Of a stretch of DNA of 64,000 nucleotides, positions 14,466 through 52,416 are shown piece by piece (the stretch's first letter is position 1; each line of letters starts with the position of its first letter). The stretch spans positions 20,458,001 to 20,522,000 of the forward strand of contig OX485804.1 of the NCBI GenBank assembly GCA_950295325.1, given 5' to 3'. The DNA is from Polytrichum commune (taxonomy: Eukaryota; Streptophyta; Polytrichopsida; Polytrichales; Polytrichaceae). Made by a program: the position numbers and the translations under genes. A model generated the notes under the pieces. That model was given only the letters and a program-made list of their open reading frames with translations, did not search any database and was not told the DNA's origin.

Positions 14466-15305
14466 GATCGTTACTACTGAAAGCACATGAAAGCAGAAAT
14501 GCCGATTTGATAAGAACATAACAAGTTTTTAGCATAGATGAACAGGTTGTAGATTCGCATCAAAAGAACATGCACTTCGATGAAACATCGTCGTTGACTA
14601 AAACCCTACCGTACATTGTGAAGGATCCTGTAGCTGAGAATTACTGTCTGGTGATCTGAGATTGTTATTGCAACAGGATTGATATTACTGAATGCACATG
14701 AAAATGGCATTTTCGGATTGACATACCTTGTCATTATGTTAGGATAGGAGAGCAGCTTGTAGATTCACAGCAAAAAGAAATGCACTTAGATGGAACATCG
14801 TAGTCGACTGAAACCCTACCATACTTTATGCAGGATCCTGTAGCTGAGATTTATTGGCTGTTGAGCTGGGAATGTTATTGCAACAGGATTGATATTACTG
14901 AATGCACATGAAAATGGCATTTTCGGATTGACATACCTTGTCATTATGTTAGGATAGGAGAGCAGCTTGTAGATTCACAGCAAAAAGAAATGCACTTAGA
15001 TGGAACATCGTAGTCGACTGAAACCCTACCATACTTTATGCAGGATCCTGTAGCTGAGATTTATTGGCTGTTGAGCTGGGAATGTTAGTGCAACAAGATT
15101 GTTATTACTTTGTTACTGAATGCACATGAAGTGGCAATACCGGATTAAGATACAAGCCAATTTGTTGCCTAGAAGAGCAGGTTGTAGATTCACAGCAAAG
15201 AGAACTGTACTTAGATGAGCCCATTGTGGTCAACTGAAATCTTGCCATACTTTATGCAGGATTCTATATCTGAGAAATATTATCTGGTGAGCTGGGACAA
15301 GCAAA
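14466..15305 (+). repeat. Four-unit ~210-bp tandem array abutting the WAV2 start codon
   Basis: Units run at about 14466-14670, 14671-14880, 14881-15090 and 15091-15305. Units 2 and 3 are 210 bp each and differ at one base by eye; units 1 and 4 are clearly diverged. The anchor AGGATCCTGTAGCTGAG recurs once per unit. Units 2-4 carry an acceptor-like CTTTATGCAG just before the anchor. Unit 4 ends directly before the ATG at 15306, so it is the native leader and the others look like amplified copies of it. Confidence 0.92.
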
Positions 15306-45267: not shown

Positions 45268-47738
45268 TCACACATAGTATGTTAAGCCGTATGATTTCAA
45301 TAAAACCACACCTGGCAATTCCTTTGGAAGCCAACTCATCCTCTCCTTGTCGGCATTGTGGCACTCGCGTTTAAAAGTCGCGAGTCGGTCATAAACATCC
45401 AAAAACAATGCAAGCTCCGCATAAGTCGGTGCGCTATTGTAGCTTTCCAACCACTTTTGTTTGGCGGAAGGTTGGGTTTGAGAATCATAGGAATCGGGTA
45501 TGGGCTCCCTCGATGGAGCGTGGCTTCCCAAAGAAGGGACCATCAAATCAAACGGATCTCCATCCCAATGTTGCGAAACCCACCGCCGTATGCCTTGCAC
45601 CATCACTCCCACGTGTTCCACCGTCTCTTTATTATGTGTCCGCACACGTTTCTTGTCCGATCCAACATCCGCACCCATGGAAGCGGGTTTTGTGAACGGA
45701 ACCCTTTGCGGGTTGCACACGAAGAATGCAAAGTTTCCACGCTCATCGAACCCCGCACATCCGGGAACCCAAGTTTCGGTTTCCGTTGCAAATTTCACAA
45801 ACATCGGGTCGCACTCCACAACGCGACCTCGACCGATTTTGAGTGGGCTATGGGTCTTGCCGCTTCGTGTGTGGCCGAGTATGTAGACATGGCGATCTAC
45901 ATCCAAGTTCCTCTTGTTTTGGCCGAGCCCAAGGCCGAGGGGAACCATTATACTCGGCACGGGGTCGCATGCGACGAGAGTGAGGTCGAGACCGCGATTC
46001 GTCATGAAAATCCTACACAAAAACCAAGAAGTCCCCTATGAAATTCCATGGGCTTTTTCCTCACATGCAAATCAAGAGTTTCATTCCACTCGTGATCCAT
46101 GACCAAAGGTGGCGGTGTTGGAATTTGAATGGAAGAGCAACCTATTTAGGTTTATGAACGGCCAAACTCGATTTTGCACGAGTTTCAACCTCGATTCATG
46201 AACCACCGAAGTGGAAGTTTCTTTGGTCAAACCTCCACGCCACCACCTCCGATCATGCACTGCAAACTTATCGAACATGGAAGCTTTTGTGCGCGAAACA
46301 ATTCAATTCCCAACAAAAAAAAGTGAGTTTTGAGTCAACGGGTTGGTAGATGACGCACCCATGACACTCACCTCGAAGGAAGAAGTTTGTGGGTGTGGGG
46401 CGGTCGTTTTGGTGTTCTCGAAGGTGTCGAGGCACCGGAGTGCGCCGGTGATTGTGTCCTTGATCCACCCCTTGACATGGATTTGGCCGATCTACTTCTC
46501 GACACCGGCTTGGACACTGCTTTTGATTCGCTTCTCGAACCTGGGGCTGAGTTTGACCGTTGCGGCCGATTCGCAAGCCCCTTCGCAATCTCGGCTTGCG
46601 TAGGGACGCACGAGAGCGACGGACTGTGAGCTCTGATGTTCCCGTAGTTGAGCAAAACCTCGCCTACCAACGCTTTCTTACTGTCGCTCACGTACTCGCA
46701 CGTCGTCAATACCAATGCCTTGTGCAGGAGGACGCCGTAGCCTGTCGGGACTAACGCCGTGCAGCCGGATTCACGCCGCTTGATACCTGCCATGACGAGT
46801 TTCGGGTTCTCGATTCCCCAACAGACGAGGCATTGAAGCTTCATCGTATGGCAATCGTACATGAATTGTGTGAGGAGGGATGAACGCTTGGTTTTCGCGT
46901 CCGCTTGAAAGCTTTTGAACCGTACTCTTGCTTGACCGGCCTTCACTTTCACATTCTCGCGTACAGCTTGGTACTTAACCTTCGTTTGCGCGGTTTTCGC
47001 TTTCACGCCTTCACGAAAAGCATGGTACTTAACTTTCGCTTGCGCACTTCTCACTTTCACAGTTTCACGGAACTCTTGGTACTTCACTTTCGCTTGCGCG
47101 CCCCGCACCTTCACATTCGCACGAAAAGCTTGGTACTTCTCCTTCGCTTGCACGCCGCCTGCTTTCATTTGTCCCGGAAGCTTTTGCAGCCTTCCTTTCA
47201 CTTTGGTTCCCACAGCGTTCATCCCCGCTCGCACCTTCCCTCCCGTGGTCTTCAACCCCGCTCGCACCTTCCCTCCCGTGGTCTTCAACCCCGCTCGCAC
47301 CTTCCCTCCTGTGGTCTTCAACCCCGCTCTCAGCTTTCCTCCCGCCAATTTCGCCCCGGCGCGTACCTTCACTCCCGTATTCTTCATGCCGGCGCGAACC
47401 TTTTTGCCAGTGATTCTCATTCCGCGTTGGACCTTTTTCCCAATCGGTTTCATTCCTTCCCGCAACTTCCCCCCCGCTGCTCTTAACCTTTCTTGCAAAC
47501 CCTTCACATTTTGTTGCTCTTCAACCGGACTTGTTACTCCAACCGTACTCACTGCTGCAACAACGCTTGTCGCGATTGCCAACCCCTCCACCACAAACTC
47601 GGGGAGGTCGGATTCCTTGGGAACCATGTCTGTGACCGCTTGCAAACCGTCAGACACAAAACTTGGGAGATTGGATTCTTCCTCAGGTTGCGGCTGGTTT
47701 CCATCCTCACCAGACTCACCTTCGGGAGGTGGATCCAT
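45268..47738 (-). CDS. Trypsin-fold protein with N-terminal 11-mer and 18-mer basic repeats, 2 exons
   Basis: Model: complement of 46372-47738 and 45268-46012; 2112 nt, 703 aa, phase 2 junction. Residues 1-85: acidic head with a duplicated LPxFVxxGLxxxT motif. Residues 86-184: nine 11-residue units (type KTTGGKVRAGL, three almost identical). Residues 197-286: five 18-residue units (type QAKVKYQEFRETVKVRSA). Residues 325-375: TALVPTGYGVLLHKALVLTT, resembling the first barrel of trypsin-like domains. Residues 395-440: Ser/Arg-rich linker. Exon 2 continues the fold: LDLTLVACDP, YILGHTRSG, GRGRVVE, then WVPGCAGFDERGNFAFFVC. Known plant relatives read about GSAGFD at the last site, so the expected Ser is Cys here, and no His follows LVLTT. 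It may bind rather than cleave. A further 3' exon cannot be excluded. The function is unknown. Confidence 0.75.
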
Positions 47739-48330
47739 TGCAAGATAGACGTAATCCTCAACAAAAGACGCCGACTAGATTGAAAGCACAAATGCTCATG
47801 CGGGAAGGTGTTATTCACAGATGCATCATTCATTCACTCCTTGTGAACCATGCTGGTTACAGCTTCCAACCCCTTTGAAACAAAATTGGGGACTCCTCTG
47901 CAGATTATGTGGTTGGTTCTCAGTCTCCACATTCTCATCATCAACAGGAGTATCAGCAGCCTCGCCTTTCAGGAGGTGGCCCGATTGCAAGGTAAATGCA
48001 CCCCGCCTCAACAAAGGCACAGACCTAATTGCGAGCAGGAAAACGTTTGTGCAGGAAGAAGGTAATAGGTATTCACAACTGCGTCACTCATAATACACGT
48101 TGAGAATCATCCTTGTTACAGCCTCCAACCTCTCGGACATGAAATCGGGGCCAATCAACTCCTCTGTAAGTTGCGCCGGGTTCCGAGTTTCGACATTCTC
48201 ATCCTCAACAGTAACAGCAGACTCACCTTCAGGAGGTGGGCCCATTGCAAGGTAATACGCACCCTGTCTCAACAAAGGGCACCGACTGGATTGCAAGTAT
48301 AGATGCTGATGCAGGAAGGAGGTAATAATA
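47690..48330 (-). repeat. Three-unit ~250-bp tandem array over the first exon of the trypsin-fold gene
   Basis: The anchor CC-TTC-GGAGGTGG-CC-ATTGCAAG recurs at 47719, 47965 and 48226 (spacings 246 and 261). Unit 1 holds the start codon of the gene. Unit 3 keeps an ATG and an open frame reading MGPPPEGESAVTVEDENVET onward to ERLEAVTRMI, clearly the same exon. Unit 2 has ATC for ATG and a frameshift. Units 2-3 may be old exon copies or alternative first exons. Confidence 0.82.
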
Positions 48331-49127: not shown

Positions 49128-51616
49128 TCATGAGGCAGCTACTACTGGGGAAACAACTGGAACTTCGGTGTGGCCATTTTCCACAGGCTCTTCAATCTTC
49201 AGAGAATCCACATCTGGGGTTTCAATTATGCCCTTGGACTCAGTGATGGTTTCACCTCCCTTCCAGTGCAAGGAAGACTTCATGTCATCCTCCTCCATCA
49301 ACTTGGAGTACTGTTCATGGTTGTAGTCGTTCGGGTTGTCAAAAGTGCCCTTGAGTGTGTCCTCATCAAAAAGCTCTGACAAAATCTTCATCGACTCAGC
49401 ATTCTTGGAGTACACGAATTTCACCTTACGGAAAGTCTTGGGGTCAAGAAAAGGCTTCACAATCTGCACAAGACACAATATTGGGCCTTGTTTGGTCACT
49501 CTTCTAAATTGGACACCTACATTTGAGTGGTACGTGGCAAGGCTTTTTACTTCACAATGAACACTGAAACGACACATGCTCAGAATGTAGACACCATTAT
49601 AGGTTACATTGTGAACATCACAATTGGAATGGTCTATGTGATCATTTGAAGAGAAAGAGAATTTTCACTTTGACCTCTTGCCTCTCAACTGCAATTCTGA
49701 AACTTGAAATGTTAATCTTCACAGGTACAATTTCAATGGAGGAGAGATACTTACAGTCCAGAAGGCTTCAAAGACACGTGGGGGGTTGTACAAAATGGCT
49801 ACATAAAGTCGCTCTGGGTAATGATTTTGAAGGATGTTAGCTGTCTCCCGGGCAGTGCTGATAGGGGTGGATTGCTTAAGTCCCCAGCCTTTGAAGTCAA
49901 TCAACCAGATCATCTGTTCCTGTCCCTCAGGAAGGTTCAAAATTGCATTCTCCAAGGAATACACCAACTGCTTGATTTGTCCGGCTTGAGTATTTGTGTT
50001 CTACATGCAGGAAGATGTCCATTGTACATCACATTAGTGGGTAAGAACCACGGATTTGAAGGTGAAAATTTTGACCAAAATTAAATAATTGTAGGTAGTG
50101 GACCTTGATGAGTCCCATCAAAACAAAACAAAATCCAAAAATCACCTGTCTTGTGGGATGCATCACAAGGACAGTGTGGCCTTGCTTGTCGTTGAAACTG
50201 GCCCTGTAGGTTTTCCCAGTTTCCGTCTCTCCAGCAATATCACTCTGCACATAAATTACACACAAATTCTCAACAATTTTAGAGACTCACAAAAAAGACA
50301 CCACCTGCAAGGATACCCCAAAATGTCTGCGACAATAAATGAAAAAACCCTGGGTCATTGTGAATTGAAATAACATCCTGCTTCTCTAGCTGAAACAAAA
50401 CAAACAAATTTGGTTATGGATCAAATTATCTAAGGATCGGAAAACCACTTCAACCGAGTTCAAGGACCTAACCCAGCGTATTTCTTCGGGCTTGTAACTT
50501 TCCCTCCAGGCCAAAGAGTCTCTCATCATCTTTTCAGCCTTCTTGAGGTTCCAGCTTCTTGCCCGTAAGTAACGCTTAAGGCAAGCATCGTTGGCGTACT
50601 GCTCTGCCTTTCCAGTGAGTGGGCCCAAAGCTGCTCGGAACTGCTCGACCTGCACATCAGAAAGAAAATGGGCCGAAAAAATCATTGGCCTCTGAAACTT
50701 ATTAACCTCTCAAAAATCCAAAAGCAATCAATGCTGTGACTATTCCTACATAACATCATCCACGATGTCGAGATGATGTTTCCCTTGCCTCGCAGGTTGA
50801 CTCAAAAGAACCAAAGCCTCGTGCTCTCACTCACTCACTCACACCCATCTAAGCTCCTTACAGCGTCTGAATGATTGAATGAAGATGGGTTTCTCAGTCC
50901 ATCACCAAATAAACTTCCCCTAGGAAAGAATTAATGGGCACCTCCGATTTCAAAAAGCATTAACCTTTGCAAACTCCCCAGAGAGTAAATCCCAAGAGAA
51001 ACCCCAAAGACTATAGCTCCTACATCATTATCGAAGTAGAGAAGGTGTCCTCCTTGCCTCGCAAGTTAACACCCAGAAAAAACAAAGCGTCATTCATGCT
51101 CTCATCCCACCCACACCCATCTAAGCTCATTACAGAGTCTGATTGAAGGGTTATCTGTCCATCCCCAAGTAGGCTTCCGTCTTCCGTAGGAAAGATGTCA
51201 CCAGCACCTCCGATTTCGGAACGTGCCACATTCGCAGACTTCTGAAACTCAATTACCTCTGAAGCATCCCAAACAAATGAACACTGTGACTTCCCCTACC
51301 CATGTCATCACCGAAGTAGAGAAGGTTTTACTCATAAAACCCATAGTCTTATGGCTGCTCTCGTCTCACACCCATCTAAGCTCGTTACAGAGAGATATTG
51401 ACATATGAAAGATAGGTTCCTCTGTCGAGCTCCAGAAGACATCGATCATCCCACATGAAGGAATTTACAAGCACCTCCGATTTCATAAGATGGGCCAAAT
51501 ACACAGATCAGAGAAGCAAGAATCCTCACCTTCACTTGCTCCTCCTCAGGAGTGGAAGGCTCATCCCCACCTCGGCTACCAGCCTTGCTGCTGCTCTTCC
51601 TCAACATGCTAGTCAT
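49128..51616 (-). CDS. SEC14-like CRAL-TRIO lipid-transfer protein, 5 exons
   Basis: Model: complement of 51530-51616, 50473-50649, 50146-50244, 49755-50000, 49128-49463; 945 nt, 314 aa, every intron in phase 0. A Ser/Lys-rich head (MTSMLRKSSSKAGSRGG) is followed by the CRAL-TRIO N-terminal helices (residues about 30-88: LKRYLRARSWNLKKAEKMM, WRESYKPEEIRW). The SEC14 lipid-binding domain comes next (about 100-260: GHTVLVMHPTRQ, LVYSLENAILNLPEGQ, MIWLIDFKGW, ILQNHYPERLYVAILYNPP, then IVKPFLDPKTFRKVKF). The tail is acidic. Plant relatives are short, soluble Sec14p-like phosphatidylinositol transfer proteins; lipid exchange at membranes is inferred. A second in-frame ATG lies three codons in. A 5' leader intron is suggested by CTGCAG just upstream of the start. 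Intron 1 has a tandem array and intron 4 a repeat D copy. Confidence 0.93.
49500..49690. repeat. Dispersed repeat D, copy 2, inside SEC14 intron 4
   Basis: It matches 19535-19745 in several ordered blocks (ATTGGACACCTA, ATTTGAGTGGT, ATTATAGGTTA, GAAAGAGAAT). It fills most of the 291-nt intron 4 (49464-49754), so the intron was probably much shorter before insertion. Confidence 0.65.
50750..51500 (-). repeat. Three-unit ~260-bp degenerate tandem array in SEC14 intron 1
   Basis: The anchor ACACCCATCTAAGCTC recurs at 50841, 51113 and 51368 (spacings 272 and 255). CACCTCCGATTTC recurs once per unit near 50940, 51206 and 51474. Other shared blocks are GTAGAGAAGGT and CCTTGCCTCGCA. The array occupies nearly the whole intron. 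Confidence 0.85.
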
Positions 51617-52344: not shown

Positions 52345-52416
52345 GGTCCCGTAGTCTAGTGGTCAGGACATTGGACTCTGAATCCAGTAACGCGAGTTCA
52401 AATCTCGCCGGGACCT
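52345..52416 (+). tRNA. tRNA-Gln, anticodon CUG
   Basis: The 72-base cloverleaf is complete: acceptor GGTCCCG/CGGGACC, D arm with AGTGGTCAGGAC, anticodon stem TTGGA/TCCAG around loop CTCTGAA (anticodon CTG), T arm GCGAGTTCAAATCTCGC. The B box GTTCAAATC is standard. A T5 run follows at 52430-52434. Confidence 0.97.

Follow-up and report, generated by a model that had tools for sequence, protein, structure and literature searches.

Perilipin 4 (Plin4) and perilipin 3 (Plin3) contain tandem 11-mers without aromatic residues, in which Thr, Gly and Val are among the commonest residues (PMC5889406). Plin4 has 29 33-mers with a charge of +1 each (PMC5889406), and perilipins have been described from animals, fungi and amoebas (PMC4562238). 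Repeats of 11 residues that make a weak one-faced 3-11 helix are also present in alpha-synuclein. Table 1 of PMC5889406, in which the values of long helices are means over consecutive helices, gives hydrophobic moments of 0.257 for Plin4, 0.30 for alpha-synuclein and 0.35 for Plin3. A similar periodicity is captured by the Pfam profile of apolipoproteins A1/A4/E (PF01442).

The gene described here lies in a window of 64,000 nucleotides of Polytrichum commune (assembly GCA_950295325.1, contig OX485804.1, positions 20,458,001 to 20,522,000 of the forward strand), to which all coordinates below refer. Its predicted product shares with the perilipins tandem 11-mers that lack aromatic residues and have Thr, Gly and Val among their commonest residues, and the moment of these 11-mers is 0.33. 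Unlike Plin4 it has nine 11-mers, carries a charge of about +9 per 33 residues and continues after the 11-mers into a second array of another period. The perilipin/PAT profile gave no match with exon 1 (E up to 10) or with residues 299-703, in searches whose HMMER filters drop most weak matches. With alpha-synuclein the protein shares the 11-mer repeats and the weak one-faced 3-11 pattern; it differs in that an acidic region precedes the array and a basic part comes after it, and exon 1 has no match to the synuclein family in Pfam (E up to 10). The charge per 11-mer unit is higher here than in alpha-synuclein. The likeness to PF01442 is one of periodicity, its score falling far short of the curated threshold of 90 bits. 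Each array is of a kind already known; among the matches listed by a literature search (titles and abstract starts), which is no substitute for a protein database, no plant protein with such an architecture was named.

Gene model and coding status

The gene is encoded on the minus strand, where an open reading frame of 456 codons extends over 46368-47738 with its ATG at 47738. The sequence indicates that the gene probably continues past exon 1 (46372-47738; residues 1-455 plus two bases; donor AG/GTGAGT) through a 359-nt intron of the form GTGAGT...TGTGTAG (46013-46371), whose removal leaves the frame open, to exon 2 (45268-46012), which runs up to the stop codon. The two exons joined by this predicted splice give 703 codons without a stop. 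Exon 1 begins with an acidic region (residues 1-77, 47508-47738) that is recognizable by sequence and composition and has two LPxFVxxGLxxxTxxV motifs; the net charge over residues 1-85 is -14. This region holds an internal pair, LPSFVSDGLQAVTDMV and LPEFVVEGLAIATSVV, spaced 21 residues apart within residues 24-60 (47559-47669, minus strand). The two repeat arrays follow, and the exon ends in a basic stretch rich in Ser, Arg and Pro (residues 385-455, 46372-46586) with a mean window charge of +3.5.

Comparison of repeat units with one another in the proposed frame gave a pN/pS of 0.45 (bootstrap 0.29-0.67) for the 18-mers and of 0.49 (bootstrap 0.29-0.72) for the 11-mers. For each array the proposed frame has the lowest value of the six, the other five ranging over 0.60-1.39 for the 18-mers and 0.57-1.50 for the 11-mers. 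The low between-unit pN/pS favors the arrays being coding, as support and not as proof, because unit pairs are not independent of one another. On the plus strand, frames of 193 aa (46905-47486) and 181 aa (47203-47748) are open across the arrays, probably as a side effect of repeats that stay in frame. Antisense coding was considered and rejected, as the sense-frame pN/pS is below that of all three antisense frames (lowest antisense values 0.60 for the 18-mers and 0.57 for the 11-mers).

Repeat arrays

The preliminary description of this DNA placed two basic arrays, of nine 11-residue and five 18-residue units, at 46881-47483 on the minus strand (residues 86-286), and its coordinates and unit counts proved right. 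The strong basicity that it reported also holds, with a net charge of +28 over the 99 residues of the 11-mers and of +20 over the 90 residues of the 18-mers. By sequence, an imperfect 11-mer unit (residues 78-88, 47475-47507) stands ahead of the nine units (residues 89-187, 47178-47474), which are of the type GGKVRAGLKTT and are delimited by lag-11 autocorrelation, tandem-repeat detection and helical moment. A Pro-Gly hinge, PGQMKAGGV (residues 188-196, 47151-47177), leads to the five 18-residue units (residues 197-286, 46881-47150), which have the consensus QAKVKYQAFRENVKVKAA and are marked by lag-18 autocorrelation, the harmonic and lag-9 tests and a helix predicted by AF2. The fifth of these units is degenerate, with 46-54% DNA identity to the other four.

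Self-identity is 57 of 96 at lag 11 (z 15.1) and 43 of 90 at lag 18 (z 14.5), with z taken from 300 shuffled versions of those residues. At the DNA level the period of 33 nt has 93% matches over 3.8 copies and that of 54 nt has 76% matches over 3.9 copies. The 11-mer array expanded recently, as two of its 33-nt units are identical and neighboring units are 88% and 82% alike.

A period that is commensurate with a helix does not alone make an amphipathic helix. The 11-mer array has a hydrophobic moment of 0.330 at 98.2 degrees, the angle of a 3-11 helix (0.31 when averaged over 18-residue windows). On the helical wheel T, V and L/M cluster, with Arg-5 and Lys-9 on one edge and Lys-3 on the opposite edge, and the center of the outer face is mostly A and T. 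Lys-3 is present in all nine units, position 4 is V or L in all nine, and position 8 is L or M in eight of the nine. Gly makes up 23 of the 99 residues. The moment is unremarkable against permutations of the array's own columns (P 0.18-0.31 on four scales), and the strongest harmonic is at 163.6 degrees (0.414 vs 0.330 at 98.2 degrees), a value that lacks significance once all harmonics are considered (Pmax 0.22). The wheel has a weak one-faced pattern, with an apolar face flanked by Arg and Lys, and we infer from the sequence that the 11-mers resemble a weak one-faced 3-11 helix of the kind that binds lipid surfaces.

The 18-mers behave differently. Their moment at 100 degrees is 0.119 (column-permutation P 0.71), lower than the moment of any helix listed in Table 1 of PMC5889406, and their strongest harmonic is at 160 degrees, with a value of 0.447 and a P of 0.027 across all harmonics. 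For a helix, this harmonic is twice 100 degrees and describes two opposite hydrophobic stripes. It recurs on two other scales (P 0.018 and 0.014) but is lost with the Wimley-White scale (Pmax 0.90). Hydrophobicity is correlated at lag 9 (0.66, P 0.011), and the unit may be read as a diverged pair of 9-mers, which agrees with the two-stripe harmonic. On the wheel the stripes A2/F9/V13/Y6 and V4/V15/A8/A18 lie on opposite sides, with the basic residues K5/R16 and R10/K3/K14 between them and E11 inside the second stripe. The long amphipathic helices that had been expected of both arrays are thus matched in part: the 11-mers have a moment in the range of perilipins and synuclein, though with the permutation P given above, and the 18-mers have no significant one-sided moment. 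A single long helix lying on lipid therefore misfits the two arrays taken together, since the 18-mers present two stripes.

AF2, run on the single sequence, draws both arrays as helices, and its confidence is good solely for residues 201-270. The helix over the 11-mers (residues 73-175) has a pLDDT of only 45-66 in blocks of residues 81-180. The predicted helix of residues 191-306 has a pLDDT of 62 at 191-200, 82-90 at 201-260, 75 at 261-270 and 60-41 at 271-300; over the last residues of the 18-mers the confidence drops to 60 and then 46. The helices break at residues 176-190, which overlaps only the first residues of the Pro-Gly hinge. An angle of 160 degrees would suit alternating beta-strands just as well; the beta-strand reading of the 18-mers is disfavored, and the two-stripe helix preferred, because AF2 predicts a helix with a pLDDT of 75-90 at residues 201-270.

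Family profile searches

No Pfam family matched the arrays at or above its cut-off. PF01442 scored 40 bits (E 4.5e-10) with the real arrays (residues 76-296) and 36.5 bits with exon 1, the match spanning residues 76-229; the cut-off of 90 bits was reached by neither. The 11-mers alone scored 24.1 bits, the 18-mers alone 13.2 bits, and the arrays with only the 18-mers permuted 23.4 bits. At E up to 1, no match was obtained with any of six permutations of both arrays, with one permutation of the 11-mers alone or with one of the three full shuffles made; these column permutations (seven in total) were not selected by moment. The reversed sequence scored 24.3 bits, and all five permutations that were picked for a moment of at least 0.33 matched (17.2, 32.8, 19.7, 37.9 and 13.3 bits, the weakest with E 0.069). 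Since controls with the periodicity match as well, the profile sees the one-faced helix pattern and not common descent, and apolipoprotein ancestry was rejected on account of the reversed and high-moment permuted controls. Apolipoprotein E in the PDB was a weak match (E 0.3).

Further matches below cut-off were DUF5916 with the arrays (E 0.082 and 0.018), DUF945 with the 18-mers alone (E 0.0058) and the sll1863 stress-response family with the 18-mers (E 0.052). Collections of viral and prokaryotic contigs contained no relatives by exact peptide patterns, an absence that says little given such patterns and such sources. Among the best candidates scored in a search of the moss's own genome (408 Mb in 64 contigs), exon 1 found itself and one other place, which aligns with residues 97-183 at 35% identity (E 3e-4), contains seven stops and looks like a chance match.

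C-terminal part

The preliminary description placed a trypsin-like fold after the arrays, most of it in what is now exon 2. The order of short motifs there, judged by eye only, could be read as a trypsin-like barrel of the HtrA/Deg kind. Profile, alignment, PDB and structure searches did not confirm it, and the resemblance is no more than an impression. Residues 299-703 have no Pfam family above cut-off and no trypsin-like match at E up to 10, the best match being C19orf84 (E 0.0094, 16.1 bits against a cut-off of 40 bits), and a further Pfam search gave no match whatever. The C-terminal part likewise has no NCBIfam family above cut-off and matches no sequence in the PDB (E up to 10). Against E. 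coli DegP, DegQ and DegS, hhalign gave a score of 16.9, which 5 of 100 shuffles reached, with the aligned region outside the expected core, and global alignments gave P values of 0.33, 0.16 and 0.33. The catalytic His and Ser are not evident; by eye their places, which are not fixed by a significant alignment, would read C/E and A (LTTCEYV and PGCAGF).

The AF2 model of exon 2 alone has a mean pLDDT of 33, and with a model of such low confidence neither outcome of a Foldseek search carries much meaning. The search gave 359 matches at E up to 10 and none at E up to 0.001, and none of the 50 matches listed is described as a trypsin-like protease. Two of these 50, 9qj4_B and 3hrz_B, come from complement complexes in which a trypsin-like protease is present, with TM-scores of at most 0.10.

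Proposed function and alternatives

As our tentative choice, held at rather less than even odds, we propose from the sequence a strongly basic protein of two rods, with the 11-mers on anionic lipid and the 18-mers packing together. The 11-mer array (about 100 residues) would be loosely structured in solution and would become a weak one-faced 3-11 helix upon contact with an anionic lipid surface. V, L, M and T would then be buried, Lys and Arg would line both edges, and the center of the outer side would hold mostly small residues (Ala and Thr). The Pro-Gly hinge would separate the jobs of the two arrays. The 18-mers, about 90 residues long in all, would make a stiff helix on which two hydrophobic stripes run along opposite sides, separated by two basic ridges, a shape that would suit side-by-side packing (self-association) better than a position flat on a membrane. 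In this arrangement the 11-mers would anchor the protein at the surface, where the 18-mers would gather it into clusters, presenting the C-terminal domain. Both the membrane binding and the self-association are deduced from helix geometry. The more elaborate combination of a lipid-coating one-faced 11-mer rod, a side-zipping two-striped 18-mer rod and a catalytically dead trypsin-like domain, an architecture without a name, is improbable.

Several results speak against the two-rod reading, namely the permutation P values of the 11-mer moment, the harmonic at 163.6 degrees, the low pLDDT and the Gly content of the 11-mers, the fall in pLDDT late in the 18-mers, and the loss of the two-stripe signal on the Wimley-White scale; nor did the searches yield a relative that would reveal which features are conserved. 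The charge of the 11-mers is also far above the +1 per 33-mer reported for Plin4 (PMC5889406), and nucleic acid could be an equally fitting partner. By the HeliQuest discriminant rule given in PMC3189734, D exceeds 0.68 in all 82 windows of the 11-mers and all 73 of the 18-mers, and likewise in all 54 of the Ser/Arg stretch; D therefore mainly reads charge here and cannot separate lipid from nucleic acid. It is conceivable, if somewhat unlikely, that the arrays bind a polyanion such as DNA, RNA or chromatin, with Lys/Arg ridges on long helices gripping phosphates, the acidic N-terminus shielding unbound arrays and the Ser/Arg/Pro stretch serving as a regulated, phosphorylatable nuclear segment. 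The net charge of +51 and pI of 11.8 over residues 77-290 (+55 and 10.1 for the whole protein), the basic stretch at residues 385-455, the two basic ridges of the predicted 18-mer helix and the invariant Lys-3 of the 11-mers would all suit such binding. The consensus of nuclear signals is K[KR]x[KR], to which KKVR at residue 112 and KRVR at residue 577 conform. A simple polycation would, however, have no need of hydrophobic 11-mer columns that are kept in kind (V/L and L/M, as counted above), the kept Gly columns are left unexplained, and no family of any kind reached the Pfam cut-off with the arrays.

We regard as unlikely a mostly neutral origin, in which slippage of 33-nt and 54-nt units within an exon of a fast-evolving gene made the arrays, which would act as a spacer lacking a precise function; tolerance of in-frame repeats that form stable helices would account for the helix-like periods. 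The identical and near-identical 33-nt units are in keeping with slippage, as are the two extra copies of the 5' end that lie upstream of the gene and the one-faced amphipathicity that is not significant against column permutations. Drift fits poorly with the bootstrap upper limits of pN/pS (0.67 and 0.72, from unit pairs that are not independent), with the two-stripe order of the 18-mers, which is significant on three of four scales, and with 703 codons free of stops. Very improbable is a stress protein of the group 3 late-embryogenesis (LEA) or antifreeze-like type, whose 11-mer helices would form on drying or bind ice. The 11-mers are rich in Gly and Lys and are predicted with low confidence to be helical, as this would ask; group 3 LEA repeats are rich in Ala and Glu, whereas Glu and Asp together account for one of the 99 residues here. 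No LEA family in Pfam matched exon 1 (E up to 10) or the arrays (E up to 1), and LEA_1 was seen only with the reversed control (E 0.95). If the two-rod reading is true, a plant protein independently evolved an 11-mer coat and joined it to a second array that faces two ways, and it would offer a natural test of how the length of a repeat determines what its helix does, 11 for surface binding and 18 for packing.

Gene surroundings

Two copies of the gene's 5' end, 73% identical to each other, lie upstream of it on the minus strand. The nearer one (47820-48060) is degenerate, shares 60% identity with the 5' end of the gene itself and reads ATC where the start codon would be; the other (48070-48330) is 63% identical to that end and has an ATG and a short open frame. 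Both bear a motif like the LPSFVSDGLQAVTDMV/LPEFVVEGLAIATSVV pair, and they may represent either alternative first exons or what is left of a tandem duplication. Farther upstream, exons of a CRAL-TRIO (SEC14-like) gene are present at 49128-50685 on the minus strand, with PF03765 above and PF00650 just below the cut-off. Elsewhere in the window, a tandem array with a 210-bp unit (3.6 copies, 87% matches) occupies 14529-15297, and a tRNA gene is located at 52345-52416 on the plus strand (Rfam, 71.4 bits).
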